Part shown: positions 300 through 32,892 of the stretch, one piece after another
How the letters are laid out: each line of letters begins with the position of its first letter
Position numbering within the stretch: position 1 is the first letter of the stretch
Assembly (NCBI GenBank): GCA_032622095.1
Contig: CP136068.1
Coordinates: forward strand, 49,470,443 to 49,534,442
Direction: 5' to 3'
Length of the DNA: 64,000 bases
Source of the DNA: Siphonodentalium dalli
Taxonomy: Eukaryota; Mollusca; Scaphopoda; Gadilida; Siphonodentaliidae
Notes under the pieces: model-generated
The model's database searches: none
What the model was told of the DNA's origin: nothing
The model's input: the letters and a program-made list of their open reading frames with translations, nothing else
Program-made: the position numbers and the translations under genes

Positions 300-300
300 T

Positions 301-322
301 ATATATATATATATATATATAT
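301..322. repeat. (AT)n microsatellite
   Basis: Eleven AT units directly follow the Helitron-like terminus. Confidence 0.9.
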
Positions 323-391
323 GCGAAAAACATCCCTGAACAAACGAAACAATATCCCATTCCGGATATTCTTCCTCTATATTCAAACACG

Positions 392-856
392 TCATTGAAG
401 TGGCAGCGAAAACTTAGAAAGTGCAACGGTTATTTCATTGTCGGCTCCAGTTTCTTTTGTTACATAAATAAGCTTCCCCGAATTATCAATAATTAAGGTG
501 TCCTTTATTTGCAATTCTCCCTCTGGTAGATGTTGGTGAAGGATAAACATTCGCTCCAGAAGAATTTCTGGATCAGACTTAGTATCCTTGTCGTCCACGT
601 GTTCATAAAGAACGGTGTGTACTGTTTCCTGGTTGTCTACAGTTGTATGACCAAACAGGGATTTATCGAATGGAATCTTCGTATTTCTTTTCGCTATCGG
701 AAACCACGGTGACGGCCCCATGTTGACAGAGATATCATGGTGTAGGACATCTTGTAGCAGTTGTTTTCTCGTCTTAACCGGGGCGATGTTGCGTTTTGCA
801 ATTCGAGCGGCGCCCTTACTCACCAAGTATCGGTCAGCTTTAAAATAAACATCTCC
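392..856 (-). CDS. Exon 7: linker and beta substrate-binding domain, stop codon
   Basis: This exon encodes residues 482-635 and the TGA at 392-394. The acceptor TATTTCTAG|GGAG has a good pyrimidine tract and is phase 0, matching exon 6. SKGAARIA (494-501) corresponds to the AYGAAVQAA end of the ATPase domain, and QLLQDVLHHDISVN to the interdomain linker. RNTKIPFDKS, VDNQETV and IIDNSGKLIYVTKETG follow the beta-sandwich in order. The frame stops at SKFSLPLQ, with no lid and no EEVD tail. I see no AATAAA between the stop and the window edge. Confidence 0.92.
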   Translation of the reverse strand, partial: GDVYFKADRYLVSKGAARIAKRNIAPVKTRKQLLQDVLHHDISVNMGPSPWFPIAKRNTKIPFDKSLFGHTTVDNQETVHTVLYEHVDDKDTKSDPEILLERMFILHQHLPEGELQIKDTLIIDNSGKLIYVTKETGADNEITVALSKFSLPLQ

Positions 857-3800
857 CTAGAAATAAAGACCAAAAAGGTCACAATGGGAAAGAAGCTCCA
901 ACGTTCCGAATAACTAGATGCCTTTCGTGGAAGTATCAATATTAGGAAAGCTGGTCAATATTATTAGTCTCCTTCGGCAACATGGAGATTAAATACCTGA
1001 ATGTCGATTTTGAACCCCTTGGCGGAGCCGATGGTTCATTCAAAAAGAGACATACAGGTATTAAATCTCCATGTCCCCATGATAACGACTGGAGGTGAAA
1101 ATTTGTACACAGGGGTAAGTTGACCGGGAATATTATTAGCTAGGTCCCGTTTACCTCGGAATTCTTAAAAGGCCACTACTAATTAATTTATATATATGCC
1201 GGCTATAGGCGACCAAACGACTAGACCCTCGGAGCTGAACATTTGTACACAGAGGTCAATTAACCCGATGAGTGTCATGGTATAGGTGCCATTGGTATCA
1301 GGTGTCTTAAAAGGGCACTAATAACTAAGTTAACTAAATAATTAATTATATACACAACATGGTTGGAAAATAGATTTATATGGGTAAATCGACCCGATGA
1401 GTGTCGTGGGATAGGTGCCGTTGACCTCAGAAAACTTAATTGGACACTAATAAACAGTTTTAATTAAATAATGAAGCATATACCCAAAATGGTTGGACGC
1501 TGGTCGATGGAAATTGGTATACAGAGGTAATTTTAGCACTCTTAATAAATGTAACTAAATAATTAATAATATACCCAAAAATAGTTGGAATATGGTCATT
1601 GAGAATTGATTCATAGGGTATATTGACCCGAGTAGTGTCCTGTGATAAGAGCCGTTGACCTCAGACGACTTAAAGATCCACTAATAAACAATTTTAATTA
1701 AATAATTAATCATATACCCAAAATTGTTGGACACTGTCTTGTCGCCAGAAATTGGTAAGCAGTGGTAAATTGGGACTGTGAGTACCATTGTATAGGTGTC
1801 GTTGACCCTAAATGGGAACCTAGAAATTATATTATCATATATGAGCAATAAAGATGGCATTTCTTATCAGTTTAAAACCCTATGTATGAAAATTGACATG
1901 CATGGGTCACCTGGACAGGGGGATATCATGGGAAAGGCGCCTTTATTATCTACTCAAAGGATATGTAGGCTAATTGGCAGATTGAGGTATTTGACACGGG
2001 TAGTGTCATGTGATAGGTGCCGTTTACCTTAGATGACTTGAAGAAGTACCAACAATTAGCAATACAGAGGGTTTGTTATCAATTTAAAATATAGAGGTAA
2101 CTTTATCCGGTGAGTGTCACACAATAGGTGATGTTTACCTCAGGTGACTAATACTTAATTTAAATGACTTGAAGGGGCATTCATAATTTACTCATTCTTT
2201 ACTCTAGCAACGCCGGGTGCCCCAGCTGGTATTAGATATTTACCACCTCTACCATTTGAATTGTGATGCACATTTACTTGCGCATTAGCCATGGTGAAAT
2301 AAAGATGATTTAAAATGAGAGAGAGACACCACCTGTTATATCATACTGGTTACTGGTTACTAGCCACAATTCATACTAGTGATAAAGACTGCTAGCAGGG
2401 TTACCGGCGTTTCCCATGTTAAAATGATCTTTAAAAACCTCTGCTGTTGACATTCCGTGGGAATAGACTCTTGTTCAATGCGTTACACGTATTCTCAAAA
2501 TTGTATATCCAAATGTCATCACAAAACGTTATTCTTATACATGGATTATAAGTAGTGGCTCACCTTGTCGGAATGATTGCCATTTTGTTTATCGCGACTA
2601 ATTCGTCCCACCAATAAAGAAGAATTTATTTATCGTACAGTCGACGTGGGTTGGAATTGATATTTGTTTTGTTTTTGTGTTTGGTTTTTGTGTTTGGTTT
2701 TAAATATTTTTATTGGGATCAAAATATGAATATTAATTCAAAATACGACAATTATGTTTTATATAGAGATATGTATAAATCAATCTAGTGGGTCAGACTA
2801 ATATTTTGAGGACACCTGGTTATCATATCTCCATGAAGATACAGATGTTTTAAAGAAATGTCCAGGTACGCCTCTGTTCATGGTGCTGTACTGGCTTTTT
2901 ATTCTCAGCTTGAAATAAATGTTTCTATATGTCAGCTACATGTGCCCGATATAGAGCGATATTTTAAGTTGTTCTAAAAATGAAAGAAATCCTCATTTTC
3001 AACAGGCCCATATATTTCCATCTCTCTTGACAAATGGTATCTTCTTTTTTTTTTTTGGAAAATATTTTTGAACAGGAAAGACTTTTGTTATAACACATGA
3101 GCCATTCTAACATACCATCCTCTGACGGTTCATTGTCCCTGTCTGTCTGTCTGTCTGTCTCTCTATATGTCTGTCTGTTTGTCTGTCTGTCTGTGTTCTA
3201 TAGAAATTCACAGGGGACCATCTAGATGATACCAAAGGGGTCTACTAGGGGTAACTTTTTACGAGAAAGATAATGGTGCGGATTAGAATTTTCTAAAGTG
3301 ACGCCGTTGTTGTCAGGGGCAAAAAGGGGGAGGGGCAGAATTTGTTTTGTCGCCGATTGCCACGAAAATTACATACAATCATCCCCATGATATAAAGAAT
3401 CTAATGGTGTGATTTAAATATGTCAAAAGTAGCAACGTTCGAGCCAGTGATGCACGGAAGGGGAGTGGGGCACCAAAATGGATTAAACTAATTTTAGCGC
3501 CGATTTCCACCACCAAATTGATATGTATTCTTCTTCATGATACAAGGAATCTAACTGTGCGATTTAAAGACGCCAAATTGATGTCGTTTGGATGAGAGAT
3601 GGGGGTGGGCAATAAACTTGATAAGGATTAAAACTAATTGCCACCACTCTTATAAGAAATCATCCCCATGGTATGAGGAGTCTAATGGTGTGGCTTAAAT
3701 CTGTCAAAATGGCCTCATTCGAGTCAGGTGTGCTCTGAAAGGGAGAGGGGCACCAAAATTTATACAAAATATTTTTAGCGCCAATTTCCACCAAATTGAT

Positions 3801-6800
3801 ACACGTTATTATTCATGGTACGATGCATCTAATCGTGTGATTTAACGACGCCATATTGGTGCTGTTTGGGTGAGAGATGGGGAGGGGTTTTTCACCAAAT
3901 TTGATAAAAATTTGTTTAGTCGCCGATTAGCACCAAACTTATAAATAATCATCTCCATGATAACAGGAGTGTAATTGTGTGGTCTGAGGATGTCATAAGT
4001 GTCAGTGGTGCATATATGTGAGAAGCCGATTTCCACCAAATTGATACATATTCTTCTCCGTGATACGAGGAATCTAATCGTGAGATTTAGAAACACCAAA
4101 TTTTTGCCGTTTGGGTGAGATATATGGAGACCTTAAATTTGATTCGAATTTGTATACTCGCCAATTTTCACCAATTGTATATATATGCATCTCCATAATG
4201 AGTCTAAGTGTGTGGTTTAATGGTGACAAAAGTGCCGACGGGAGGGTCACCAAAACTGATAAAAAATATTTTAGTACCAATTACCATCAAATTTCCTACA
4301 CGTTCTTCTCAAATGATACGAGGAATCAAATCGTGCTGCCTGTCTTTCTGTCTGTCTGTATATGTTCTATATATAACTTCACGGGGTACAGTCGAGATGG
4401 CACCAAGGCGGTCTAAGAGGGGTAACTTTTTACGAGAAAGATAATGGTGCGGGTTAAAATTTTCTAAAGTGACGCTGTTTGTGTCGGGAAAAAAAGGGGG
4501 AAGGGCGGCAAAATTAAAAAAATATGGTGAAATAGTTTTGTCGCCGATTTCCACCAAACGCATACATAATCACCTCCGCGATGTGACGCTGTTCGAGTCA
4601 GCGTTGCAGGGGTATCAGCAATTGATCTAATAAACTATTTTTAGCGCAGATATCCACCAAATTGATATATTATTCTTCTCCATGATACGCAGTCAATGTT
4701 ATGCGATGCCAGAACAGATGAAAACATTTCCCCCTGGCTGAGTTGTATCCACGAGTTACTAGACAAATGTAATCTGCCGCATATATGGTGTGCAGGTCAT
4801 GCCACCAACGTAGATCAGCTAGTATCATATCTAAAATGTTGCCTTATTTCCGAACAAAGAGATTCTTGGGAACGTGACATGAACAACACAAGTCGTGGTC
4901 AAATATACCGAATTTTCAAACACGACTTTGATTTTGAACCCTATCTTGATACACTTAGCGACCATAACCGAACACTGAACTGGAACATTATGCAAATTCC
5001 GAACTAGTAACCATAAGTTACCAATAGAAACGGGACGGTGGAACAATACTTGCGTGTTATGTGATACAAGGGTAATTGGTGACGAATTTCACTACCTTCT
5101 CGTATGTAAAAATATGAACAACGCCCGGCGCAGATTGTTACCAATGTTAACTGGCCGACGTCCTAATACAATATTGATGAGTGATTTACTCAATGACGAC
5201 AATGTAACACACCTCCGCAAGTTGTGCGAATTTATTAAGCTTGTAAATCGAGAAATGACCGAATAACTCAGCTAGAAAATAGCTCGAACAAGCATTATCA
5301 TAATTTGTGTAAGAACAGTACCGATATACGCATACACACAGTTATTAATATATATTTATAAATATGTATATGTAAGCATATACAATAAATCTATTTAGTT
5401 GTATATGCTTATATATTAGTAATATCCATATACATGTTACAGTGTTATACATATAAGATAGATAGTTTATTACAATACACCAGTGCAGGCAGTTGCAAAT
5501 AACATAAAGTACAAGTAAATTAAACATAATACATAATATATGTGCATATAACAGTAAACAAACCTATAACTACATCATACATACGATTCATAATGAAATA
5601 TAAATTTCCCATAATTTTCATTTCCCCATATTTATATTTGTTCTCCTTTGGAAGAATAACCGGATAATGTTGCACACGGAATTCATAATTACTTCGTCTT
5701 CATTTTTCATTATAAAAATGAATTTATCATCATCGTTCATGTTTGTAAAGTGTATGTTATTAGTGTTAGCAACATCAAATAATTCTTTCCTGAGGTCAGT
5801 GTACGCACTGCATTCCATTATGAAATGTTTTTCAGTTTCAACCTTTTTCCCATCACACATGAGACAAATTCTGTCTTTTAATAACGTCTTTGGTTGTGTG
5901 TGTCGGCCTTTTTCTATAGCTAATATATGATTGCTAACACGCAGTCGGGTGAACATTTCTCTTGCCGTTGGTGATCGGACGTGTTTGAGGTATGGTTCTA
6001 TTTCATATTTGTCTTTGAACGTTCTATATGTTCGTAGTTTATTAGCACCATTCTTTTTGTCGTCATCGAATATATCTTTTTTGAAATTATTTACATGTTC
6101 TGATTTTAGTCTCTCAATTATAAGTTTGTCGGTGAATCCTATCGTTTATGTAGCGATGAAGGTTATGTAATGTAATCCATGTATACAACATTTGTCACCC
6201 GGAAGCTCACATGCCTATGTACATATTGTATATATGTAACTGTTATTATCTCCATACCTATGTATGTATAGGTTTATGAGAAATAAACTGATTGATTGAG
6301 GAATATAATCGTGTGATTTAAAGACGCCAAATTGCTGCCGTTTGGGTGACAGATGGTGTGGGGGGGGGGGGGGGGGTCATAACTATGATCAGAATTTGTT
6401 TAGATCATGATTACCACCAAACCTATATATAATCATCTCCAGTATATCATGGATATATAATGGACGTGGTTTAAATATGTCAAAAGTGGCGCCGTTAAAG
6501 TCATGCACGAGGATGGCAGTTGCACCAAAGCTGATACAAATATACCAAATTTATACACGTTCTTCTCTAATGATACGATGAATTTAATCACATTTGGCGT
6601 CGTTTGGGTCACGGATGGCGAGAGGATATGCACTATCATTTCTATGATTGCTATTCGCCGATATCCACCTATAAGTTATATATAGTCACCAAGCCATCTT
6701 CATATCGTTTTAAGGAGTGATTTTGGCGTTCAAATTTCACAATCTCGACAAAATAATTTATGGTAACCCAATTAAGTCACTTGAACAGTTATATCTTCTC

Positions 6801-9800
6801 AACTGTCATATTGATATGGGGTGGGAATCAGGAAATTCACACAATGAGCTAGCATACATAGAAGAAGCAATAAATGTATATTTATCATTCTATTTAAGAT
6901 ATACAAATATTCTTGCAAACTGAGAGACCTCGAACCGTCAGAGGATTGCATATTAGAATGGCTCATGTATATATTACTAGCAGGTTAGCCCGCCACCGGC
7001 GGCGTTTGTCCGAAATATGACATTTTATGACATGTTTATTTTTTAATATTAATTTAATGTTTTTTAAATGTAATATATTTTTTTTCTGAATTTTTTTCCG
7101 AAACATGACATTTTATGACATGTTTATTTTTTAATATTAATTTAAAGGTACTCAATCCGTAAAGAGGGTCCCCATCTCAACAGATTCCAACAACAACAAT
7201 CCGATCAGAGGGTCCTATATTACTATTTCTTTGGCTTTGGGGGTAAACAATATTTGATTCGAGTCGAGGAACCCATCAAACAAATCTCAGAGTTATTAGA
7301 TATTGATTTTTGAAATTTGTTATGTTCTCGAGATGAGTACTAATAACTGCCGTAATCTGCTCTGGATGTGTACTCCAAATCTATTCAAACAGACAAGGAT
7401 GGATAACTCTAAAATCAAGTGGTAATTTTAACGCAATTTTGACTGAGTTCTGGGCCAGATAGTATTCCCGATAATGAAAAATAATAGAATTCTAAAATCG
7501 ATATCTAACAAATCTGAGCTTTGACCGGTGACTTCCTCGACTCGAATCAAATATTTTTGACCCCCGAACCCATTGAAATAGTAATTGAGAGGAGTTTTAT
7601 CGGATTGAGTACCTTTAATGTTTTTTAAATGTAATATATTTTTTTTCTGAATTTTTTTATTTTTTGTTTCTGGCGGAAAAATTTACCCGATGAAATCTCC
7701 CTTCCTAGGAACGATATTGGGTTTTTCAATATTTTACCCGATTTGACCTTGAATTGATCATTTTCAAGGTCAAGGTCATGTCGGGGTCACAATATATAAT
7801 TTGTGGGTACCCGTTTGAAGGTTAAGACTGACCCGATGAAAAATTCCCCCGTTCCTAGGAACGACAGACATAAGAATGTTTCACACAATGCGACGTCGAC
7901 GATCCCCGTGTGTTTTTACACTTATATACGAAGTTTGAGCTCACCTAGGGCGGAAAAACTTACCCGATCCGCGTTCTTAGGAACACAACAAGCTCATGTC
8001 TATACACGCCCAGACCCAGAAGAGGTATGATTTTATTTAACCTGCACGTGGCCATTGAGCAGCCCCTGACATAGGTTGTCCACCCTTACGAGATGGTCAA
8101 TAGTCCCCGCAAAGTTAATCCCGTCGCGAACCCCATCCTCACAAAGAGCGGACAGTCAATTAATCCCGTCGTGAACGCCATCACCAACGCGACGTAATTT
8201 TGTTTGGTATCATGTGTTGCGTTCTAAAAATAGGAAGGCACTTGTTCCCGTATACGTTTGCGTAAATACGAAATTGTGAGTGTTGGTTTGTAACCGGGAT
8301 TTCTGAGAAGCATTATGCCTATAACTAACCCCCCCCCCCATAAGCCATGACCTAAGTGTCATACATACTATAACAATGATGTTGTAAGAGTACTATGGCA
8401 TCCAATAAATCTCCCCGCATAGGAAACCACTCAATGTTCCCGTATATCTCTCTGCAGATGCTAATACCGTTGAATGGTAAACAGACGCTCTTTATAGCGA
8501 TGTGTCAAAAACAAACGCTCATTAAATAATCACTTGATTAACCCACGCCGTGCCTTGACGGTGATTTGGGAGTGGATAAAGGGTGCTCAGAGCTTCTCCA
8601 AAAACGCGACAACTACGGTGTTCGTGGGTTTTTACCCTTAGATGGGAAGTTTGAACTCAATCGAGCCAGCCGATTTCGATTCTATAAAGTACATATATAC
8701 AGAAGTCTCAAAATATATAGTACTAGAAGGTGACCCGACTTCGTCCGGGCTTGGACCTTGAATTGACCATTTTGAAGGTCACGGTCAGGTGGGGTAACGA
8801 TTTGACCCGCCCAAAACACTGCCCGGACAAAAGTACCCGACAAAAGTACCCGTCGAAATCCATCCGGTTTTACCCGATTTGACCTCGAATTGATAATTTT
8901 GAAGGTCAGGTCGGGGTCACGACTCGACCCGCCCAAAACACTCAGTGGACAAAAGTAACCCCACGTATCAAATTTCGTCGAAATCCCATCAAAATTCGCG
9001 ATTTGACCTTGAATTGACCCGATTTCAAGGTCAAGGTCACGTCGCACGGGCAAATTAATAGGCCTATGCCCGTTCCCGGTCGAAAATACCCCCACATACC
9101 AAGTTTCATCGAAATCGGCTCGGCCGTTTTCGAGTTCATCGCGAACAAAACACTCCCCGGACAAATCTGGCGTCGTACGGGCTCGGCGACCCGATAAAAT
9201 TCGTATCCGGGGCAAGATACATTCACATACCAAATTTCAAGTCGATAGCTCCACCCGTTTCCGAGATCTCGTCTGCGCAAGCGCGAAGCTGGTTTCAAGT
9301 CGATAGCTCTACCCGTTTCCGAGATATGGTCTGCGCATGCGCGAAGCTGGCGTCGCACGGGCTCGGCGACTCGATAAAATTCGTATCCGGGGCAAGATAC
9401 ATTCACATAGCAAATTTCAAGTCGATAGCTCCACCCGTTTCCGAGATCTGGTCTGCGAATGCGCGAAGCTGGTTTCAAGTCGATAGCTCTACCCGTTTCC
9501 GAGATCTGGTCTGCGCATGCGCGAAGCGCTGGCGTCGCACGGGCTCGGCGACCCGTTAAAATTCGTATCCGGGGCAAGATACATTCACATACCAAATTTC
9601 AAGTCGATAGCTCCACCCGTTTCCGAGATCTCGTCTGCGCATGCGCGAAGCGGGCGCCGCACGGGCTCGCCAATACGACAACGTCTACCGCCTGGTCAAA
9701 CGACACACACGTACCAAGTTTCGTCCCGATCGGTCGAGAATCGTAGATTTGTATAAATGACAGACAAACATACATACAAACAGACAGAGGTCTTCAAAAT

Positions 9801-12800
9801 ATATATGAGACTAGCCGATGAGCCCGACGTTGTCCGGGCTATTCAAAAACCAAATTTCAAGTCGATAGCTCTACCCGTTTCCGAGATCTGGTCTGCGCAT
9901 GCGCGAAGCTGGCATCGCACGGGCTCGGCGACCCGATAAAATTCGTATCCGGGGCAAGATACATTCACATAGCAAATTTCAAGTCGATAGCTCTACCCGT
10001 TTCCGAGATCTGGTCTGCGCATGCGCGAAGCTGGCGTCGCACGGGCTCGGCGACCCGATAAAATTCGTATCCGGGGCAAGATACATTCACATACCAAATT
10101 TCAAGTCGATAGCTCCACCCGTTTCCGAGATCTCGTCTGCGCATGCGCGAAGAGGGCGCCGCACGGGCTCGCCAATACGACAACGTTCACCGCCCGGTCA
10201 AACTACACACACGTACCAAGTTTCGTCCCGATCGGTCGAGAATCGTAGATTTGTATAAATGACAGACAGACAGACAAACATACATACAGACAGAGGTCTT
10301 CAAAATATATATGAGATAGATAACACAATTGAGTCTATTCCATTCAATACAATTTCCATACAAAACAGTTACAATTTGTCAAGAGATATGGAAATGTGTC
10401 GAAGGCCTGTTCAAAAATAGTGTGCACAGTGTGCAGTAAAATATATTTTCTTCTGATATAAAAGAAAATGCAGTCAGTAGCACATGACTTTTCAAGATCC
10501 TCCAATACTGACATATGACAAGGATATATCTGCCAAGCGGATTTTTTAGAACAGACTCATCGACTAACATAAACAACTCAAAATCTCGCTCTGTGTCGGA
10601 CACATGTAGCTGATAAACGTGCGCAGCAACATTTCTTTTAAACTGAGAATATTTAGCCAATATATAGCACCATGAACATAGGAGCATCTGGACATTTCTT
10701 TAAAACATCTGTATCTTTATGGATATATGATAGCCAGGACCGGTGTCCTCAAGATCTTAGTCCAACCCATTAGATTTTATTTTTGCGAACTAATGTGTTT
10801 ATGGTGTTCGTGTATCATGTTATAACGTCTCAAGTATACTTAGTTTTAAATAAATAAATACTTCTTTATTGGTGGAACGGATTAATCGCGATAAACAAAA
10901 TGACAATCGACAAGGTGAGCCACTACTTATATTCCATGACTGTAAGAATCGTGTTTTGTGATACTATTTGAATATACAATTTATGAGAATACGTGTGGCA
11001 CTTTGGGCAAGAGTATTCTCTATTCCCAACAAATATCCACAGCATGCAGAGGGTTTCACATAACTTTAACCTGGGCAACGCCGGGTAACCCTGCTAGTCA
11101 GCGATAAATATATTTCATAATTTGTTCATCTGCCCCTGACAACAACAGCGTCACTTTAGAATATTTTAACCCACACCATTACCTTCCTCGTAAAAAGTTA
11201 CCCCTGGCCGACGCATTTGGTGCCATCTAAATGGTCCCCCGTGAAGTTCTATAGAACAGACAGACATTCGTAAATGTAGACACCAAATGTGGCGTCATTA
11301 ACCAACACGATTTGATTCCTCGTATCATTGGAGAAAAACGTTTATAGATTTGGTGGAAATTGGCGATACACATATTCTTTTATCAGTTTTTGACTCATTA
11401 TGAAGATGACTATGTACATCAATTTGATGGAAATCGCAATTAACTAAATTCGTATCAAATTTAGTGCCCCATCTCTCACCAAACGGTACCAATTTGGCGT
11501 ATTTAAATCACACGATCGATTAGAATCCTTGTATCGTGAGGAAGAATGTGTATCAATTTGGCGGAAATCGGTGCTAAAAATATTTCATCAGTTTTGGTGC
11601 CCCCTCCGTGCACCTCTGCCTCAAACGGCGCCAATTTTGACAGCTTTAAGCCACACCATTCGACTCCAGATATAATGGAGACAGGACGTGGCTAGAGGGT
11701 CTCCGTTGGGGGTGTCCACCTTGGGAAATTCCAACTGCTGCAACCCCCCCCCCCTTCAATCAGAATCAAACCAAACACAAGTTTTGCATAATTCCATTTG
11801 CACTCCCTTGCACCTCACTGATCAGGCCTAATATCCTATATATTTATAAACCATGGTTCTATATTCCCGGTAAGACAACATTCATATAGTTTAACCTGAA
11901 AATTGCATAAATCCTAACATCAAGTGGTCTATCTCCAGACAAACGCACACGGCTACGGACAAGAGACCAGGACACACCGGGCGGACCATGGTTGTTCGGC
12001 CCGGTGTGAGAAAATTTTGAAAACTATACAAGAAAATCGCAAATCCTAGCATAGACTGGCCACAACTGAAGCCCGACTGGTTCGGCCCTGTGTGCGAAAA
12101 TTTGAAATCTGAACACGAAAATCGCAAAATCATAGCATCTAAGACTAGCCTCATACCAAGCCTTCCTAGAGTTGGAAATTTCAAACCTAACACCCCCACT
12201 TAAGTTGGAAAATTGCCAACTGATGACAATTCTAATGACAATGTTGACCAAATGTATGACAATATTGTTTTCTTAAATTAACTAGCAGTTTTTGACTGGC
12301 CATGCACGGGGAGGGACCAAGACACAAGCTTTCCAAGTGTTGGAAATTTCCAACCTGTCACCCCCACCCCCAAGGTTGGAAAATTTCCAACTGATGATCA
12401 TTTCAGTCCAAAATTTTGACCAAAAAATAGGAAAATATGCAAATATTGGTCCAAAAACAATTAATCCCCCCAATAAATTGTCTGAAAATCAAACTACAAG
12501 AACATTTTCAACCTATTGTTGGTGTGAAATTTCCAACTAATGTTTTGTCGCCACGTCTCTGAATGGAGATGATTCTGTATAAGTTAGGTGGTAATCGGCG
12601 ACTAAACATATTCTTTTCCAATTTAGGCCCCCCCCCTTCACACCCATCTCTTAGCCAAACGGCACCAATTTGGCGTCTTTAAATCACACGATTAGATTCC
12701 TTGTATCGTTGGGAAGAATGTGTATCAATTTGGTGGAAATCGGTGCTCAAAATATGTTATCAGTTTTGGTGCCCGTCTCCCCTTCCGTGCACCCCTGACT

Positions 12801-15800: not shown

Positions 15801-15824
15801 CGCTGATTTTGTGATGCAATTATG

Positions 15825-15855
<31 letters not shown>

Positions 15856-21800: not shown

Positions 21801-24800
21801 AAAATGAAGTTTATCATCTATTGCATAACAGCATATATTAGCGCGTTAACCAATGTGATTGACTCACCTAAATGTAAGTTACCACCGGTAGCCTGGACTT
21901 CATACTCCCCCTGGTCGTTGACATAAACTACAGACATGTCCAAATTTCCAGCTCCAAAGTCGATTACAAACACAGTCTTACCATGCAGTATATGGTCTCT
22001 TCCATATCCAATAAGTGCAGCCGTTCTGGAATTAGAGTTAAAAGAGAAATTGTCAGTAAAATCAATAGCACAAAACGGCCGTTGGTTTGTTTCGAAATGC
22101 GTGCATTTCAGATTCCTTAAATTGGAGTTATCATCCGGAAACAAATAAACAGGCCAAATTATACCTGATTTAGAGACTATTTGCAAGACGGGCTCTCGCC
22201 GCAAACGTTAACTCAGAAACAGTCACTCCCTGTCACCGCGTCCGTGCAACCGCTTATACTCACGATGTGCTTTTGATTTGTGACATTACGCTAAATGACA
22301 ATGATCATTTTGTTATTATAGAAGCAACCTTGAAATTAATAAAGTCATTCATGCAGATGATTTTCGTCACATAATCAACAAATTGTCTATTATCTTGATC
22401 TCAACCTCACTATAACCCATACATGTATATATCGTCTGTATAAACACACACCCGACTTCTTAAAAAATCCGCAATACCACGAATAAGATACTGTGTTTAA
22501 AATTCAACATGCATGCATGTACCTGGTATTCATCCACCCGTCATATAAGGATTAACTGTCATGTGGACTGTTTTTATGGAGATGTAACGGTGAGGTAAGT
22601 GGACATAACTTGTGTAAAACCCGAAGGGTTTTACATACAAGTTATGACCACTTACCTCACCGTTACATCTCCATAAAAATAGTCCACATGACAGTTAATC
22701 CTTATATTTATATACATTTAGCGAGAAAGTCACTTTTGTAAATATATTTAAATCGAAAAGTGTATCGTGACAAGATCAGCCCAAAATACCCAATAGCACC
22801 CTTGCCAAAAGTTAATAGGAACAATTTATCTTCATATTGAAACCCGATGATGTATTAAGTCAATCCTGCGCGAGTCCAAATGCGCCCAAAACATTACGCG
22901 TTCGTATTTCCAAACCTAATGACGTATCGATGGTGTTATTAGCTTGGTGTTATGAGGCGTTGCACATTCACCGAGAAATAACTGCAACTAGCCACGTGGG
23001 CGCCGACCAATCAGAATGCTGGATTTAGTGATGACAACACTTAGTGTGTAAATATAAAAAAAATGATTGTATTTAATCATTCCTGCTGCATTACGTTGTT
23101 ATACCTACTCAGCTAGAGTGGAGTGTGGAGTGTGGGGAGTGGAGGTTCGTGTAAGTTTCAAAAACGTGTCCACCATTCTATTATTCTAATCCCCCAATCT
23201 GTGTATGATATGACACAAATAAATAATTTTAAATCTCAATACGCTTACGCTTCGGTGACAAAGTCCACTTCAAGACGAGAAGACCATCTTTTGAGAATCC
23301 TCTTTCTGGTGTCCTCTCTAAAATTGTAACCAACTCTGGATGGCACAGCGATGACCACGTGACACACATCAGACTCTGATAACTGCCACCTCTTGATGGA
23401 TTCTTCAATGGTCTTCTCGATCATGGACAGCCATGCATTCTTCGCATCGGAAACACTGACTTCCGGATACAATCGTTTCCGCCACGTGGCCGCGCTGCTG
23501 GCGATAGACATGCTTTTGGCGCCGAAAACTATCTCCTCTTGGCTGATTGTAGACCCACGATGAAAGCTCATGTCTCCCAAGTTAACGACAGCCCTGGTGC
23601 CTATGTCAGTTGTTTCGTCCAGGAGTAGAATACCGTCGTCATCAACGGAGTAACCATATGCCCTGCGAAATTATTATTATTAGCATATATTACTATATGA
23701 TTTATAATTACCAACGACCGCGCAGAGGGGTAATTGCATACTCACTTCATTGCTTGTATAGTCACCACCAAATTCCGAAAACCAATTGACAAAATTGACA
23801 AAGAAATATGAAGGTGTGTGGATCACACATCCGCGCTTTTCTGGATTAGAAAAAGCTTTGCCATCACTGGACAGCTTATGTCGGCCAAATGCGCCGTGGA
23901 CTCCACCAACTGAGCCATCGCGGGAGTATTGTACTGGTACCGTGGCATACGGCCAGGGGCCTATACTATAGAATACAATTTTTGTAATAACAGGCTTATT
24001 TGAGCCGTACAGAAGGTGTCGAGTACTATAGACCACTGTAATCTAACAGCGAACGCGATTTCTTGTAAATCACAAAAAGACGGCAAATCGAGTACTATTG
24101 ACCACCGTTCGTTAAACGCACATCTAAACATTTGTGATTTTGTAAAGGGAAATTACTCTAATGATATATGCGAATGATTTGGCAATGCCTATTTGTGTCA
24201 GTTGGTGAGTGATTTTCTTGATGAATAAATGTACATTATGTGTGACTAGTTTCCGATACTTGGGCTATTTTGACCACAATTGCGCACGGTGAAATGTAAT
24301 TCCTTCGGTATCATGTGGAATATATACTTACCATTTTCAGATGTTTTATGTAACATGTTTCTTAGCGGTTTGTCGAAAATGGTCGGCAAACACACATATC
24401 GGTTGCCCTTCAAATGGCCACATCAAGTTTATATAGCAATATTACCACGGGTGGAACTGGAACCTGATTTGTCTAGCAAGCTCTGGGCAGGGACAGCGGC
24501 TGAAATATTAGTTGGAACATCTAGACCTTAATAGTTGAAAAGTTGGAGGTACCATGCAGCTGGAAAAATTCAACCCGTGATGGGGGTGCGATGGCTGTTC
24601 TCGGACTTAGTATTTTCGACCTCTGTCAAGGATGAGTGTTCATTTGGAAATTCCAATGTGGACCAACACTCCCTCGTCCAGGGTCTCCGGGGACATCCAA
24701 CCTCCATTTTAAAACATAGGCCTATATATAGCAACATCTACTTAAACTATACCTATACTTAATTTATACCCAACTAACTAAGCGGCTGAATTTAGGTAAA

Positions 24801-27800: not shown

Positions 27801-30800
27801 TCCAGGGGACTGGCTTGATGCACTGATGACAGTTATTTTCTGGCCATTGATATCACATTAATTCTATACACATAATGATCTGGGCTTTAGTTGCGTCAAG
27901 ACAAGTTTATTTATTTCAGTTTTACATTTCTTGAAGCTTCTTTCAGAAGGGTGTCAGGAAGGGATTGTTTCACACCACCGTCCCATATGCAACATGCCAT
28001 AGCTTAATGTCATCTACACTAAGGCCCATATGAGGTCACACTAACATAAATATGGTGTTTTTGTTGTTAATTCTTATAATATGTTTTAAACTGTTACAAA
28101 TGTCAAACAAGGGCACAAATGGTCTTTAGTAAAAAAAATTGTATGAGTTTTTTGCCCCTTGTGTGACCGGCCCACTCCGGCATACCTTTCTGCAATTTTT
28201 ATGTTCCTGCCAAAACGAAAATAAAACGACAAATTTAGCATTACAAGTAGATGATGCCATTTACCTCTACTAAGTCTACGCCCGAGTATCAAGTTTCATC
28301 CGTTCAAAACATGGTATTTGTTTTATGTTCAGACGGGGAACTTGTGTGAGTTGATATCGCAATAAACATTGAATTGATATATTCCATAATTGGAAGCGAT
28401 GCTAAAAACATCGTCATAAACTTCCTTGTCAGAAAATCAAAAAGCTGGTGGGTTATATATGATCTCTATATACGGGCGCGTGTAGCTGAAGTAAAAATCA
28501 CGATACGAACTATACACTACCAGCTGACGACAATTTGAAACAATGTGTACCCATCCCCCAAAAGTGAGCTTCATACATTTAAAATATTTGTTTTAATAAT
28601 GCTCACCTGATGTACGCTGTTCCTGGGTCTATACCAACAGCAAACCCATTTGATCTATTGCTGACTGCAGTGCATTTAATATCGCTCCGAACCAACGTCT
28701 CGTTTCGTGGAAGCAATGGAAGCAACTCCCTTATGTCGTATTTGTGTGATCTGAACATTAACTGTGCTAATGGAGTGGAACATATTACCAACCCAACCAA
28801 ACTGACGATAATGATTGTCTCCCTCTGCCTCGACCAATCTATAGATACAAAAACACCATTTAAATATATCTCTTCATTTTTTGCTCTTTTTTTGTTTGTT
28901 TATTAAATACTCATTGACAAGTATAGTTCCCTCATGAAGTGTTCAGAGAAGTTCAACAAACTTTTCTGAACATTTCCAACCAACGAATAATGAATCCTTC
29001 TACACAATGTGTCTGATAATTATTATATGTCTGCCATCCGCTCACATTTCACGAACATGCATGCCCCCAGATGATATAGAACACGCCAATGTATCTTTAA
29101 TTTCATAACTAAATAAAGAGTTAAATTCCCCATGCAGGATCGGGGTTATAATAACAGTCTGTCGGGAGTTACCATTTTCTGTACTAGTACGGTACATTCC
29201 ATGTACGGTATCAGGAACCTGGACAGTTAGTTTAAAGTGATGTGAAACACTCCGATTGGGTGAACAAATAGAAATGGAGAATAATAAAAGTAGTTATTTT
29301 TATGAATATTAACCCAAATTTACAATACACAACGTCATTCTTATATATTAATTCAATGCATTGACTCTCGATGGCGAAATCATTTAGGTTAGTTTATCGC
29401 CGATCGCTGCGTCCCGAATCGAGATGTAAATATTTACAATGAAGCGTAGTTCAGACGGTGATATCTATGTAGTGGTATGGTCAATTTCTTTGAGATTTAC
29501 GGCGATGTTAGTAGAATTCTACATTCCCACAGACGGCATAGCACATGCGTACTAACTTATTAGTTTCACGCACCGAGCAAGTCCATAATATGTCTTTAAT
29601 TATCGATTAACATGTAGTCATGGTTCCAGTCTAATTTTATGACAAGTATTTTACTTGTGCTTTAAATTCTACACTCTAAGAATTATTCAGAACCAACCGG
29701 TTATTCGTGGGTTCTTCAGCGTGAAGAACCGATCCGTGTGAGGAGTGGGTTCTTTACTTTCCGAAGAACCATGTTTTGTCTTATGAACCAAATGAAGTGT
29801 GAAGAACAAAAACTGATTCACAAGAAATAGTTATAGTTCTCGGCAATACAACGATTTATGCTAGTGTTGATTTGAACATAGGTAGCCTTATAAAACACTC
29901 AAGTAAACCAGCATATGCCATGGTATATTAGGGTATTACCTGAATTTACCGGGATAAGCCAGGGTACATCTCACTTATCGGGTTCCTGGACCCATGTAAA
30001 ACCCTAGTAAACCAAGATATACACAGTATATTTCACTTAAAGTGAAATATACTGTGTATATCTTGGTTTAAATAGCGGTGTAAATGACCAATGTAAAACC
30101 CTTGTAAACCAAGGTATACTAGAGTTGTGCCTGAATTATCGGGATATTCCACAGTACATGTCCGGGGCCAATCACTCATGTAATACTAGTATATACTCTG
30201 GATTTTTTATGACCAATTACACAAAAGAGAGAAAGTCCCCTTAAACTCTGAATTTTCCAGTTCTGACACAAGACCCATGTATGCAATTCCAGGATGACCA
30301 CGTATTATTTACAAGGATGTACATGGGTTCCCTGATGTTCACCAAAAGAAGCGTTACGGTTGCCTGGGTCAATGACATGTATAACTAGAGTTTACCACAT
30401 ATTTACTTGGCTATACAGGGGTATCCTAATGTATATTGTTAAATATGTTAATAATGAATGCGTTGGTTATTGTAAACCAGCCATGTTGATATATCTATTC
30501 TTGTCGTTTTGCAAACACCAAACACCAGTTCAAATGTTTCGGCAAAATTCCATACTGCATCCTTTAAAAGAATTTGCCATGCTTCATAAGGTACTGATCA
30601 AGTAACATGTTTAATAACGAAGTGAGTTACAATTTGCTACCTTTTCGGAAAAGCAGAGAATATTGTTATGGATATACTGTTGTTGCCATTTTGCAAGCCA
30701 TATTGAGTAATATTGTCTAAAAAAAACATCAGTGTGACACATTTAAAACCAGATAAAAACAATTTTACTTGAAAAAATGGTCCAAATCTGAAATATTTCT

Positions 30801-32448
30801 GGTAATATCAGTAGTAAAAATTGACCAAGGTGCATCAGTAATGTTAGTATTCAATGTATATAGGTCATATTAGTCAATTGTATTCATCAACCACAATTTG
30901 TAAATTATTGCAGGCACGCTGGGGCAATATCTACCATCTTCCATAATTTTGGCGGTCGTTTTTGCCAAAGTGAAAATATTTGTTCCATTGAGTTGGAATA
31001 TTCATAAATGATGATATGCCTCACTTACACATTACACATTTCTACCCATTTCTTGTTGGCATATGACTAGAATCCCAATGGTGATTTTATGTGAATTTTA
31101 TACCGTATTCTGTAAAATTGAAATTTTGAGGGATCGGAATGGACTGGGACCCACATAATGGCATATCATTGCTCCAATTATCAGTTAACATGGAAATTAT
31201 AAAATATAGTCGCAATCTCAATTCTCAACCAGATCCAAACAGCAGAAACTTATCTAGAAGATATTAATGAAAAATAGTCATATTGTCCCCTTCCGGTGGC
31301 CATTTGGTGGCGATCTTAGACGGGGAGTTACAATTTTACCCTAAAAAGGTGGCACTATGTGTTAGCTTCCCAATATGTATACACTTGACAAGATTTCTCT
31401 CTATAATTTGCATCAAACTGACTTTTTGTGCCTCGTCTGAAAAAAAACGGCGGCCATGTTGGACGGCATGTTGTCTGATGTCTATATAGCGACCGTTTTC
31501 GTGTTAACATTGCTTAAAAGATAAGGGACATAAAAAGGAAGAAAATGAGTGGGGTTAGTTAAGTCCTGTGGTGGAGTGCAGATGTACCCTATCGGCTCAC
31601 AGACTATTATATTTGTGTTTTCACTGCCGTTTCGTGACCTTTGACCTCTGCCCTCTGGTGACATCATCAATGGCAACATAATATTTTATTTGCTACCAGT
31701 GGTTTGAGTATTCAAATACCTACAAAATTACAACCATAATGTTAAAATCCGATGATAATGACATCACTTATATGGGATTCCCCACCCCATCATGATTGGG
31801 AAAATGCAAACTGAGTAAAGCTAAACTTTGACCCAGTAAGTACACTTGGACCAACATATTTGAGCTGGGTACATAAAACACACAGAAATGTGGCGACAAT
31901 AACCCCTTCATCCACAGTGGGCTCCAGTTCGAAGCACATTCGATGACCATTATAAACAATATAAGCATTCAGTAGTATATAATTAATATCTATTGCTACT
32001 GATTACTTATATATACTGTACGTACTGCTTAAATTTATTTAACACGGCCAACGACTGTGGTCGAAAGCTTGGGCAGAATAAATTAATCTATTTTATTATT
32101 CGAAACACCACCTGTTTCAATGGTCGTGTATTAAAATATCGTCGACTTTCCACTGGGAAACACGGGAATTATATACCAACCTATTCGCTGGATTGCCGAC
32201 AGGACAACAACCGTGCATGCAAACATGGCGGCTGGCGATTTTTCAATGTTTCTTCCATCGTCTGTATCGTAGCAAAAGTATTTCAAGGATATCGGGGAGT
32301 CCTGGTTTCTTTGCAAACACACTGCCTGGTAGGGCATCAAATCAACAGGCTTCCATGAGAATACATACGTCAGAACGGAGACAACTACAGACGCAAAGAC
32401 AGGCAGATGCGTCGCAGAAGGGTTGTCGTCAACGAATGGCTGTTCCAT
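392..32448 (-). CDS. Membrane-anchored Hsp70-like protein, 7 exons, 635 aa (whole gene)
   Basis: Joined minus-strand exons 32181-32448, 28607-28838, 23249-23662, 21868-22025, 20818-21026, 14777-14938 and 392-856 total 1908 nt, one open frame with matching phases 1,2,2,1,0,0 and GT/AG at every junction. Hydrophobic segments lie at about 15-32, 72-88 and 97-118. The Hsp70 ATPase domain starts near 154 (phosphate-1 GIDPGTAY, 158-165) and continues through AVPSRV (272-277), EATAALIGYG (304-313), phosphate-2 DFGAGNLD (327-334), LGGDD (357-361) and adenosine motif GGGMQFP (461-467). A beta substrate-binding domain follows (about 513-628), and the protein ends at 635 without a helical lid. HSPA14 also stops near this point, but I do not claim orthology. 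Family members are ATP-driven chaperones. Altered motif residues make ATPase activity uncertain, and membrane location is inferred from hydrophobicity. If exon 1 were not used, Met117 in exon 2 would give a 519-aa form without the membrane segments. Confidence 0.87.
1080..2229 (+). mobile_element. Helitron-like element with degenerate tandem-repeat core
   Basis: Roughly 120-bp units repeat the phrases GACCCGATGAGTGTC, ATAGGTGCCGTTGACCTCAG and TTAATTAAATAATTAAT with strong divergence. The right end reads GCAACGCCGGGTGCCCCAGCTGG|T. A second copy of this end lies inverted at 40511-40610, where TTACTCATTCTTT and the GTGACTAAT region also match. The left boundary is approximate. Confidence 0.5.
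2392..3090 (-). mobile_element. Helitron-like element, copy A
   Basis: On the minus strand it ends in GCCGGTAACCCTGCTAG. The body (TTTATCGCGACTAATTCGTC, CCACCAATAAAGAAG, ACAGATGTTTTAAAGAAATG) matches 10314-11097 in the opposite orientation at roughly 75-80 % by eye. Confidence 0.5.
3142..3194. repeat. (GTCT)n microsatellite
   Basis: Imperfect GTCT/CTGT run inside the left end of the satellite element. A related short run occurs at 4345-4365. Confidence 0.9.
4690..5266 (+). pseudogene. Non-LTR retrotransposon reverse transcriptase, C-terminal remnant
   Basis: Two overlapping frames give the C-terminal end of a LINE polymerase. The first ends in SDHNRTLNW (to about 4985). A frame change continues as LCKFRTSNHKLPIETGRW, then CVLCDTRVIGDEFHYLLVCK. 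This is the Cys/His zinc-knuckle end (FRTSNHxLxIExGR...CxLC...DEFHxLxxC) typical of marine invertebrate LINEs. The 5' part is missing and the frameshift makes it inactive. The 3' end of the same insertion is at 6165-6297 (AATAAACTGATTGATTGA tail). Confidence 0.8.
5618..6165 (-). pseudogene. Second, antisense LINE reverse transcriptase C-terminal fragment
   Basis: On the minus strand the frame stays open from about 6150: FTDKLIIERLK, KLRTYRTFKDKYEIEPYL, then MFTRLRVSNHILAIEKGRH and ICLMCDGKKVETEKHFIMEC, ending NINMGK at 5618. The block order is the same as in the plus-strand LINE, but the sequence differs, so this is another family. It lies inside the 3' untranslated part of the plus-strand LINE in the opposite orientation. 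Confidence 0.8.
6165..6297 (+). mobile_element. 3' end of the plus-strand LINE
   Basis: AT-rich 3' UTR-like sequence (TACATATTGTATATATGTAA) ends in GAAATAAACTGATTGATTGA. The next base resumes the satellite unit (GAGGAATATAATCGTGTG) exactly where it was broken at 4690. Confidence 0.65.
6977..8050 (-). mobile_element. Helitron-like element, interrupted by a TTAA element
   Basis: The minus strand ends in GCTAACCTGCTAG followed by T, with a GC-rich hairpin (CGCCGCCGGTGGCG) just inside. The body repeats TTTATGACATGTTTATTTTT and, further on, ACCCGATGAAATCTCCC, CTAGGAACGA and CTTGAATTGATC. The right boundary is uncertain. Confidence 0.4.
7146..7614. mobile_element. TTAA-flanked foldback MITE, copy 1
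   Basis: It is flanked by TTAA on both sides (7142-7145 and 7615-7618). Ends are AGGTACTCAATCCG and its complement. Long inner inverted repeats carry GATTCGAGTCGAGGAA and CCCATCAAA. TTAA target sites are the mark of piggyBac-type (or Kolobok) transposition. Length is 469 bp with no coding capacity. Confidence 0.8.
8050..8722. other. Intronic sequence, no gene seen
   Basis: It contains short degenerate repeats (TTAATCCCGTCGCGAAC and TTAATCCCGTCGTGAAC) and a C9 run near 8330. No reading frame or RNA signature is supported. Confidence 0.5.
8723..9810 (-). mobile_element. Helitron-like element with two tandem arrays
   Basis: The minus strand ends in GCCCGGACGAAGTCGGGTCACCTTCTAG|T. The first array (8750-9160) repeats CTTGAATTGACCATTTTGAA, GGGGTCACGA and CGACCCGCCCAAAACACT. 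The second (9170-9660) is the 126-bp GTATCCGGGGCAAGATAC unit also seen at 1-299. The other end carries GACAGACAAACATACATAC and AAAATATATATGAGA. Confidence 0.55.
9811..10313 (-). mobile_element. Helitron-like element abutting the previous one
   Basis: It starts CTAGCCGATGAGCCCGACG (CTAG|T on the minus strand) directly after the ATATATGAGA end of the preceding element. It carries two 126-bp units and the same GACAGACAGACAGACAAAC end, so two elements sit head-to-tail. Confidence 0.55.
10314..11097 (+). mobile_element. Helitron-like element, copy B
   Basis: It ends in GGGCAACGCCGGGTAACCCTGCTAG followed by T, with an ACCCGG/CCGGGT hairpin. The body matches 2392-3090 in reverse. Confidence 0.55.
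11110..11673 (-). repeat. About 240-bp satellite units, inverted
   Basis: The same family as 3200-4690, read on the minus strand (CACCAAACGG, GAATCCTTGTATCG, CACACCATT). It continues at 12570-12880 after the insertion. Confidence 0.7.
11682..12561. mobile_element. hAT-type non-autonomous element with 8-bp target duplication, copy 1
   Basis: Ends are CAGGACGTGGC and CAGAGACGTGGC (as complement), flanked by the direct repeat AATGGAGA (11674-11681 and 12562-12569). The insertion lies inside a satellite unit that reads through after removal. The body is rich in TTGGAAATTTCCAAC inverted motifs and carries no transposase. Confidence 0.85.
12570..12885 (-). repeat. Satellite units, continuation
   Basis: It contains CGATTAGATTCCTTGTATCG, GTGTATCAATTTGGTGG and GACTCGAACGGCGCCAC, the inverted form of the units at 3200-4690. 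Confidence 0.7.
12886..13998. other. Intronic sequence, nothing recognised
   Basis: No repeat shared with the rest of the window, no exon-like frame that fits the Hsp70 gene and no RNA signature. A frame at 12903-13205 (+) is open by chance composition only. Confidence 0.5.
13999..14425. mobile_element. TTAA MITE, diverged copy 2
   Basis: The right end is intact (CGGATTGAGTACCT then TTAA at 14426-14429). The left end has decayed, but TTACTATTTCCTTGGCTTCG and TCGAGTCGAAAAA are recognisable. Confidence 0.7.
14777..14938 (-). CDS. Exon 6: Hsp70 adenosine-binding motif
   Basis: This exon encodes residues 428-481, exactly 54 codons, phase 0 at both ends. The acceptor is TGTTTATAG|GAGG and the donor ATCAAAG|GTATAT. 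Residues 453-477 contain NIDLVLMTGGGMQFPGVQEL, clearly the family's DIVLVGGSTRIPKVQ block. The Ser of GGS and the Arg of TRIP are replaced (GGGMQFP). Confidence 0.92.
15060..15720 (+). repeat. Left arm of a large inverted repeat
   Basis: GTAGGAACTGCTC, GAGACAGAC, GTCCAGTTCACT and ACTCGTGAT match the complement of 20470-20570. CTCCAGTTCA motifs recur on both arms. The arms flank the nested transposons at 16217-19604. Confidence 0.55.
15825..15848. repeat. (TA)n microsatellite
   Basis: A run of TA units followed by T-rich sequence. Confidence 0.9.
17011..19218. mobile_element. CAGGGGCC-ended DNA element, copy 1 (nested)
   Basis: Terminal inverted repeats of about 35 bp start CAGGGGCCTATACTATAGAA at each end. 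Subterminal regions repeat the GAGTACTAT and GTACTATAGA motifs. The CAGGGG ends resemble hAT, but I see no target duplication. It has no transposase. A TTAA MITE sits inside (17620-18087). Confidence 0.75.
17620..18087. mobile_element. TTAA MITE, copy 3
   Basis: Ends AGGTACTCAACCCGATAAAA and CGGGTTGAGTACCT (right end), flanked by TTAA at 17616-17619 and 18088-18091. It is absent from this position in the sister element at 23954-26690. Confidence 0.88.
19613..20030. other. Intronic sequence, no gene seen
   Basis: A 187-codon open frame on the plus strand starts inside the hAT element and is mostly repeat. I found no domain in it. Confidence 0.45.
20040..20640 (-). repeat. Right arm of the large inverted repeat
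   Basis: On the minus strand it reads TAGGAACTGCTCATCGAGAC, TTTTGTCCAGTTCAC and ACTCGTGATC, matching 15137-15260. A second block with GCTCCAGTTCACC matches 15605-15690. Confidence 0.55.
20818..21026 (-). CDS. Exon 5: Hsp70 ATPase lobe II
   Basis: This exon encodes the end of codon 358 and residues 359-427. The acceptor TTTCCTGAAG|GTGG completes LGGDD, matching the family's LGGEDFD. Further on, AREKCLEASKQ (387-397) aligns with the LRxxCExAK helix and EGTFKEM (419-425) with RARFEEL. The donor AGCCCG|GTACAT is phase 0. A second in-frame donor 21 bases downstream (CTTCAC|GTACAT) is possible but makes this stretch longer than in canonical Hsp70. Confidence 0.88.
21199..21306. repeat. 31-bp minisatellite, about 3.5 units
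   Basis: The unit CATATTCGATTTTATCC plus AGGAATCTCCACCC is repeated almost without change. Confidence 0.9.
21708..21780. repeat. 35-bp tandem duplication, each unit a palindrome
   Basis: CTGTAAAAATGTATTTTTAC plus AG, followed by CGACAACGCTATG, occurs twice in a row. Confidence 0.9.
21868..22025 (-). CDS. Exon 4: Hsp70 ATPase phosphate-2 motif
   Basis: This exon encodes residues 305-358. The acceptor is CTAATTCCAG|AACGG and the donor CATTTAG|GTGAGT. The translation runs TAALIGYGRD, then VFVIDFGAGNLDMSVV (323-338), then EYEVQATGGNLHLG. This is colinear with the canonical AAAIAYG, FDLGGGTFDVS and VKATAGDTHLG blocks. The middle Gly of the GGG is Ala and the Thr after it is Asn. Both Asp residues (327, 334) are kept. 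Confidence 0.93.
22543..22706. repeat. Near-perfect foldback element of about 164 bp
   Basis: Arms of about 78 bp begin ATATAAGGATTAACTGTCAT and pair almost without mismatch around the loop near CCCGAAGGG. It is a palindromic MITE in intron 3. Confidence 0.85.
23249..23662 (-). CDS. Exon 3: Hsp70 ATPase domain, lobe I
   Basis: This exon encodes residues 167-305. The acceptor ATTTCGCAG|GGCATATG and donor ACCGAAGC|GTAAGC are both phase 2. It contains EEIVFGAKS (209-217), a WRKRLYP segment (227-233) whose Lys229 may correspond to the catalytic Lys71 of Hsc70, and DVCHVVIAVPSRVGYNF (265-281), which aligns with the family's VITVPAYF strand. It ends in the glutamate (304) of the usual NEPTAA motif, here TEATAA. 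Confidence 0.92.
23680..23953 (-). other. Unassigned tRNA-like or coding-like segment
   Basis: On the minus strand CGCGATGGCTCAGTTGG fits a tRNA A box, which suggests a SINE, but no B box follows. The same stretch also holds an open frame (GAFGRHKLSSDGKAFSNPEK ... NWFSEFGGDYTSNE) ending at a GTGAGT donor-like site. Its phases do not fit between exons 2 and 3, so it is not part of the Hsp70 transcript as modelled. Confidence 0.3.
24853..25268. mobile_element. MITE with about 26-bp terminal inverted repeats
   Basis: Left CCACTTAATTTTCGAAT and CCAGAT pair with right ATCTGGTGATTCGAAAATTA and AGTGG. The matching position in the sister element (about 18345) lacks it. Confidence 0.7.
25678..26140. 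mobile_element. TTAA MITE, copy 4
   Basis: AGGTACTCAATCCGATCAGA at the left, CGGATTGAGTACCT at the right, with TTAA at 25674-25677 and 26141-26144. Confidence 0.88.
26691..28606. other. Intron 2, downstream of the nested element and before exon 2
   Basis: It contains a G16 run near 27060, poly-purine tracts and, at 27485-27488, a CTAG|T end with a CTCCCAAAGGGAG hairpin on the minus strand, which may be another Helitron-like terminus. No further exon is seen. Confidence 0.45.
28607..28838 (-). CDS. Exon 2: third hydrophobic segment and start of the Hsp70 ATPase domain
   Basis: This exon encodes the end of codon 90 through the first two bases of codon 167. The acceptor is TATCTATAG|ATTGG and the donor CATCAG|GTGAGC. 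Residues 97-118 form a hydrophobic run followed by basic residues (R119, H121, K122, R126). Residues 155-165 read FAVGIDPGTAY, the Hsp70 phosphate-1 loop, in which the second Thr of the usual GTTY is Ala. Confidence 0.85.
29233..29593 (+). repeat. Dispersed repeat, copy 1
   Basis: It shares with 56283-56655, in the same orientation, AAAGTGATGTGAAACACTCC, GCGTCCCGAATC, ATGTAAATATTTACAA and GCGTAGTTCAGACGGTG. I do not recognise the family. Confidence 0.8.
30009..30069. repeat. Perfect 61-bp palindrome
   Basis: Thirty-base arms beginning AAACCAAGATATACACAG with a one-base centre. Confidence 0.9.
32181..32448 (-). CDS. Exon 1: start codon, N-terminal hydrophobic segments 1 and 2
   Basis: This exon encodes residues 1-89 plus the first base of codon 90. 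The ATG at 32448 sits in a good initiation context (ACAATGG). Hydrophobic runs lie at about 15-32 (LPVFASVVVSVLTYVFSW) and 72-88, separated by a polar loop with two cysteines (44, 59). The donor reads GAATAG|GTTGGT, weaker than the other donors, but its phase 1 joins exactly to exon 2 (G|AT gives Asp90). I recognise no homologous domain in this part, so it rests on the open frame, the phase match and the TATA-like box upstream. Confidence 0.72.
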
Positions 32449-32500
32449 TGTGTAGGCCTCTGATCCGAGCCAATTTTACACGGTAGAGTTACTCCCCGTC

Positions 32501-32513
32501 GCTATATATACGA
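32501..32513 (-). promoter_or_regulatory. TATA-like box of the Hsp70-like gene
   Basis: The minus strand reads CGTATATATAGC about 55 bases upstream of the ATG at 32448, which implies a short 5' leader of about 25-30 bases. No clear array of heat-shock elements (alternating GAA/TTC) is visible in the next 200 bases, so heat induction is not supported. Confidence 0.45.
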
Positions 32514-32892
32514 TATCAGTGGTGTAGATGGCGTCTTGTGAAGTTTAAGCCCGCGCAAACCACCAAGATGTACACAGGCCGCCAGATGTGACAGATTTGT
32601 GTTTAAATACCTGGAAGCAGATCAAAGTACGTGTTGTGGATTTAAGTAGTTACTCTTATATATTTTATAATTTATGTCCATGAATTTGGGAATTATTTCA
32701 TTTTCCACTGGGTTTTTTTTTTTTTACGAAAAAGCCTGTTTTACCCAAAACATTAACAATCGTACAACATCTCACAAAAAGCATCGGCATGTTATCCGCT
32801 CTATCGAGACGAACATTGTACTAAGTCCTGCCACTCAGTGGCGGCCATATTTGATCCATCCAGCTCCCATTCCGCGGTTTAAGTGCTAGAGA

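Follow-up and report, generated by a model that had tools for sequence, protein, structure and literature searches.

A probable membrane-anchored, lidless Hsp70 of BiP descent in the scaphopod Siphonodentalium dalli

A seven-exon gene on the minus strand of a 64,000-nucleotide stretch of DNA from Siphonodentalium dalli (the window) is probably a strongly diverged duplicate of BiP/HSPA5, encoding a lidless Hsp70 that is anchored by three membrane spans. Hsp70s are generally known as soluble machines, recruited to membranes by their partners, and to our knowledge no multi-pass, lidless and membrane-fixed member of the family has been described in animals. The product is probably fixed in the membrane, since the lid and the retention tail of BiP have been lost and two membrane-spanning-like stretches have been gained. 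A more tentative and broader reading, offered as possible rather than probable, is that a BiP duplicate with a captured promoter and first exon constitutes a multi-pass, lidless, membrane-fixed Hsp70, present as two fast-evolving copies and new in animals.

The gene extends from window position 32448 to 392 and comprises 1908 nt, that is, 635 amino acids plus the stop codon. Exon 1 (32181–32448) holds the start codon and the first two hydrophobic segments (residues 1–89), and exon 2 (28607–28838) holds segment 3, a linker and the first phosphate motif, GIDPGT (28618–28635; residues 158–163). ATPase lobe I, in shortened form, lies in exon 3 (23249–23662), while exon 4 (21868–22025) carries TAAL and the second phosphate motif, DFGAGN. 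Lobe II is divided between exon 5 (20818–21026) and exon 6 (14777–14938), the latter including the TGGG motif, and exon 7 (392–856) supplies the end of the ATPase domain, the interdomain linker, the substrate-binding beta domain and the stop. All six splice junctions are GT/AG and in phase, and the seven-exon model of the original prediction, joined in phase into 635 residues, was right.

Several features of the surrounding sequence are recorded here in their own right. Window positions 1–7560 match C8:49462701–49470257, on the contig that carries the window and just beyond the left edge of the window, as a 7.56-kb tandem duplication of 99.96% identity, which is either a recent duplication or an assembly artefact and which supplies a second, identical exon 7. 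GC-rich repeat arrays with periods of 58, 116–122 and 180 occupy positions 9167–10171 and 1–259, with a frame that encodes a recurring peptide, and related sequence occurs at the duplication's edge. An ORF at 5618–6145, within the large last intron, has a weak zf-RVT match (E=0.046, under the curated cut-off) and is possibly the end of a retrotransposon.

Searches of the genome (2.23 Gb in 9 contigs), with a first query that included some read-through intron residues, found one other copy of the gene. It lies on the same contig at C8:37.051–37.156 Mb, approximately 12.4 Mb from the window gene, and retains exons 1 to 7 in order and on the same strand (exon 1 at 37155721–37155988, exon 2 at 37116345–37116528, exons 3 to 6 within 37097258–37093601 and exon 7 at 37051386–37051853), with GT/AG throughout, no frameshift or stop and approximately 620 amino acids. 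The differences consist of a 16-codon in-frame deletion in the exon 2 linker and an exon 6 acceptor placed three codons further in. Intron 1 measures 39 kb in this copy versus 3.3 kb in the window gene, and the interval between exons 1 and 2 aligns only in patches.

The gene most likely derives from BiP/HSPA5, judging by the positions and phases of its introns. In comparison with both ordinary BiP genes of the genome, the five introns of the Hsp70 part agree in phase in every case and fall at the exact codon in four, the last lying within one residue. The BiP introns interrupt the C of GTTYSC (phase 2), the P of NEP (phase 2) and the first G of HLGGED (phase 1), and follow LNM (phase 0) and the K of FNNK or FNGK (phase 0); those of the window gene interrupt the R of GTAYIR, the A of TEA and the first G of HLGGDD, and follow MSP and FLKSK. 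For the BiP exons, matches were selected by strand and E-value. At none of the five intron places is there a break in the tblastn matches of HSC70, HSPA9 or HSPA13; those of HSPA4 continue across four, the fifth being unclear. HYOU1 was too fragmentary for the comparison; the exon edges used for it are approximate, and some include read-through.

Similarity scores against the window protein were highest for the two BiPs (92.8 and 91.3 bits), followed by Hsp70 (81.3) and HSC70 (77.4). The values for HSPA9 (53.1), HSPA13 (37.0; 279 amino acids), HYOU1 (21.2) and HSPA4 (20.4) are lower bounds, because these sequences are partial. In a protein tree the pair did not group with BiP, but its branch of 2.22 changes per site, for which the program issued a long-branch warning, meets another long branch, so that the tree is uninformative on the position of the pair. 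The exon pattern is the stronger guide to the origin proposed here than either the tree or the BLAST scores. By the position of its 3′ intron, exon 2 corresponds to the signal-peptide exon of BiP, and in the alignment the BiP signal peptides fall opposite segment 3; in a protein that includes exon 1, this segment is internal rather than N-terminal, and segments 1 and 2 come from a new upstream exon.

The ordinary BiP genes are found at C9:31.03 Mb and C9:55.19 Mb (655 amino acids), and both encode a full lid and end in the tails RDEL and KEEL. An origin from HSPA13 was rejected on account of the beta domain, a different exon pattern and the lower score. An HSPA12-like gene was represented by one intronless locus, with no tblastn match to an Hsp70 query. 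A viral source was likewise rejected, as viral contigs searched with the 351-residue ATPase part gave four pattern matches and no relatives. Contamination is unlikely in view of the six introns and the presence of two copies on one large contig. Elsewhere, Hsp70-like pieces at C3:186201084–186202791, three of the four containing stops, are possibly a broken copy; an intact intronless Hsp70 adjoins them on the other strand.

The protein contains a recognisable Hsp70 module. Pfam HSP70 (PF00012) matches residues 264–628 with E=1.5e-30 and 106.5 bits against a curated cut-off of 20.6, and the second copy reaches 91.3 bits. No Pfam match was obtained for lobe I (residues 154–263), even when the ATPase domain was submitted alone, and this lobe was recognised through the motif GFAVGIDPGTAYI and the intron positions. 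Among solved structures, DnaK and BiP are the best relatives, by way of the substrate-binding beta domain, which is present and through which the Pfam match continues to residue 628. The alpha-helical lid is absent, and the protein ends in SLPLQ (SLPVQ in the second copy) with no KDEL-type tail. Although the ATPase domain had been described at the outset as complete and colinear, only the second term holds: completeness is too strong a word for a domain in which lobe I is shortened, very divergent and unmatched by Pfam, and in which residues have changed. In Hsc70 numbering, the equivalents of D10, T13, K71 (with an unsure alignment), E175, D199 and D206 are kept, while T14A, T204N and R342Q are changes, to which the second copy adds D366G; the window gene also lacks the arginine and asparagine of RIINEP. 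For the parts that the kept and changed residues play in the Hsp70 cycle, we take those commonly assigned to them. Nucleotide binding by the protein is plausible from its residues, and a normal ATPase cycle driven by J-proteins is doubtful.

Only three segments in the 635 residues score at or below +3 on an approximate insertion-energy scale: residues 14–32 (32353–32409; 1.52), 71–89 (32182–32238; 1.58) and 96–114 (28765–28821; 0.25). The same three are found in the second copy, with scores of 0.40, 0.91 and 0.31. No Pfam family matched residues 1–153. For comparison, 35 ORFs, each 85 codons or longer, were taken as background from window positions 33001–64000; in their first 89 codons, a segment scoring 1.7 or lower, a cut chosen after the exon 1 values were known, occurs at least once in four of them, and none contains two. 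That the segments are part of the gene is best supported by the second copy, which keeps the seven exons, the frame and all three segments. The predicted three N-terminal membrane-spanning-like segments thus lie in the joined frame and recur in a second gene, the one homologue found, where their absence would have spoken against the prediction. If exon 1 is used, the protein departs from the single N-terminal segment of the HSPA13 type.

Whether the protein has three spans depends on exon 1, which is probably coding, as suggested by its codon usage and by the end of that signal at the splice donor. Between the copies it is 94.0% identical in nucleotides with no indel, whereas its flanks carry five. 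Under a coding-usage model trained on three Hsp70-type genes, with the 31 kb that supplied the 35 control ORFs as background, exon 1 scores 0.014 in frame, above all 35 ORFs (best −0.186) and above its other five frames. When amino-acid composition was removed and only synonymous usage was compared, it exceeded 34 of the 35, in a test of low power, given that exons 2, 4 and 7 fall within the background range. Taken alone, exon 1 has a dN/dS of 0.48 with a bootstrap range of 0.16–1.82, which spans 1 and reveals no constraint on its protein sequence taken by itself, and its substitutions are distributed 4/6/6 by codon position.

The region upstream is slightly better preserved than exon 1 itself. 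Over the 450 bases of 5′ flank (32449–32897), identity to the second copy is 95.5%, above that of every exon but exon 3, which may reflect either promoter constraint or recent conversion. A TATA-like site (32505–32510, minus strand) lies 62 bases 5′ of the start codon, with one change in the second copy, and another, TATAAA, lies at −221 from the ATG. With the promoter patterns used, no full ERSE was found in any of the four upstream kilobases scanned, a result that is uninformative, as the element is absent upstream of both ordinary BiP genes too; a UPRE-like site in the window (−855) and HSE-like sites in the second copy (about −500) are not common to both copies.

Two alternative accounts of the first exon were considered, and the more serious of them, though unlikely, is that transcription begins near exon 1 but another short first exon provides the start, leaving a product with segment 3 as its single anchor, much like HSPA13 or a BiP whose signal is not cleaved. 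Exon 2 has no in-frame ATG downstream of its upstream stop in either copy, and an upstream exon is consequently needed for any protein retaining segment 3. Candidates for that role were sought in the parts of intron 1 that align between the copies: none of nine conserved blocks offered an alternative first exon with a donor above 2.5 common to both, and four blocks yielded no shared candidate for an extra internal exon between exons 1 and 2. The cut of 2.5 would also fail the exon 1 donor, which scores 0.37, a value equalled or exceeded by 10.7% of 655 nearby GT sites and undercut by the donors of exons 3 and 5. At a low cut, which was applied to the exon 1 block only, both copies share ATGs at 32790 and 32784 (donor 32745) and at 32681 (donor 32654), with weak phase-1 donors, as well as an internal ATG at 32337 that would leave only segment 2 from exon 1. 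These weak starts speak for the single anchor, together with a conservation of exon 1 that is no higher than that of its 5′ flank, but the 15-codon stretch from 32790, the sole alternative scored, reaches only −0.538, a value equally low in 13 of 621 CDS windows, while the usage of exon 1 is coding-like and ends at its donor. The same boundary bears on the other, improbable account, in which exon 1 forms an intronless 105-codon gene of its own and lies upstream by chance. Its frame does stay open for 16 codons beyond the donor, up to a stop that is identical in both copies, with only two differences there; however, the 15 codons beyond the donor are noncoding-like in usage, scoring under all 621 overlapping CDS windows, and exon 2 would be deprived of a start.

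The remaining alternatives accept the three segments and concern the side on which the Hsp70 domain lies and whether the genes function at all. A cytosolic Hsp70 domain, as originally predicted, is a variant of the preferred three-span reading and overlaps with it in probability, and we regard it as rather unlikely, though less so than the other alternatives. In its favour, lysine plus arginine number approximately 3 on the side of the N-terminus and loop 2 versus 8 to 9 on the side of loop 1 and the Hsp70 domain, and the N-terminus is acidic, so that charge summed over all loops supports this part of the prediction; on the other hand, the local charge flanking segment 3 is balanced, and both the descent from a luminal chaperone and the conserved cysteines of exon 5 stand against it. 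These four cysteines, at residues 366, 375, 391 and 411, are missing from the two BiPs and retained in both copies despite an exon 5 identity of 51%, which by a simple calculation has a chance of approximately 0.07 and is suggestive only. The N-glycosylation sequons near the linker, at 135 and 150, are both absent from the second copy, a point against the preferred reading. BiP ancestry and the conserved new cysteines lean towards the ER lumen for the Hsp70 module, and a luminal domain is somewhat favoured overall. That both copies are decaying duplicates, functionless relics, is the least probable account of all. Low identity to BiP, altered catalytic residues, the missing lid and an exon 5 dN/dS of 0.80 (bootstrap 0.43–1.47) would fit such decay, but the two copies have stayed free of frameshifts and stops despite a dS of about 0.4–0.5 in exons 4, 5 and 7. 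Whole-gene dN/dS between them is 0.48 (bootstrap 0.37–0.64), which indicates that the pair is under purifying selection, and exon 4, at 0.09, has the lowest value of the seven exons. Synonymous divergence itself differs several-fold among exons (dS of 0.11, 0.16, 0.08 and 0.12 in exons 1, 2, 3 and 6 versus 0.40, 0.43 and 0.49 in exons 4, 5 and 7), which suggests gene conversion.

Among known systems, BiP (GRP78, HSPA5) is the closest, sharing the five intron phases, the best full-length score and a hydrophobic segment in the signal-peptide exon. The window protein differs from it in being only 28% identical, in lacking a lid and a KDEL-type end, in its two extra segments and in starting in a new exon. 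HSPA14 and yeast Ssz1 are cytosolic Hsp70s without a helical lid and without membrane segments; they are lidless like the window protein, and are set apart from it here by this general description rather than by sequence. HSPA13 (STCH) is likewise divergent and has an N-terminal hydrophobic stretch. It is reported to lack a substrate-binding domain (PMC9691929). It ends after the ATPase domain, whereas the window protein has a beta domain and another exon pattern, and a separate HSPA13 gene is found in the genome at C2:103.41 Mb. A gastropod BiP duplicate, hspa5l.1 of Monodonta labio, is reported to have a signal peptide together with a predicted transmembrane domain, with 659 amino acids and a full-length Hsp70 domain at 34–640 (PMC10969875). 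On those figures its length resembles that of the ordinary BiP at C9:55.19 Mb and not that of the lidless window gene. Among the open-licence papers listed for membrane Hsp70, titles and abstract openings describe ordinary Hsp70 at tumour or cell surfaces, and no multi-pass Hsp70 was found among them.

Under the preferred reading of a three-span BiP duplicate, the start codon of the ancestral copy would have disappeared, its role passing to a first exon that came with a new promoter, and the BiP signal peptide would thereby have become the third of three membrane spans. The membrane anchor may then replace the KDEL-type tail as the means of staying in the secretory pathway. Less certain is the placing of the Hsp70 module on the luminal side of the ER or outside, as in BiP, with a weak or nucleotide-gated peptide-binding site kept at the membrane; its possible clients would be nascent or unfolded chains or a fixed partner, handled in the absence of the lid and of the normal J-protein cycle.

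If this reading is true, the protein would be a chaperone fixed in the membrane itself, in which peptide binding no longer depends on the lid, nor perhaps on J-proteins. The exon pattern of BiP would provide a concrete route to such an architecture, with a new first exon turning a signal peptide into a membrane span, which would make the origin of the architecture testable in related genomes.
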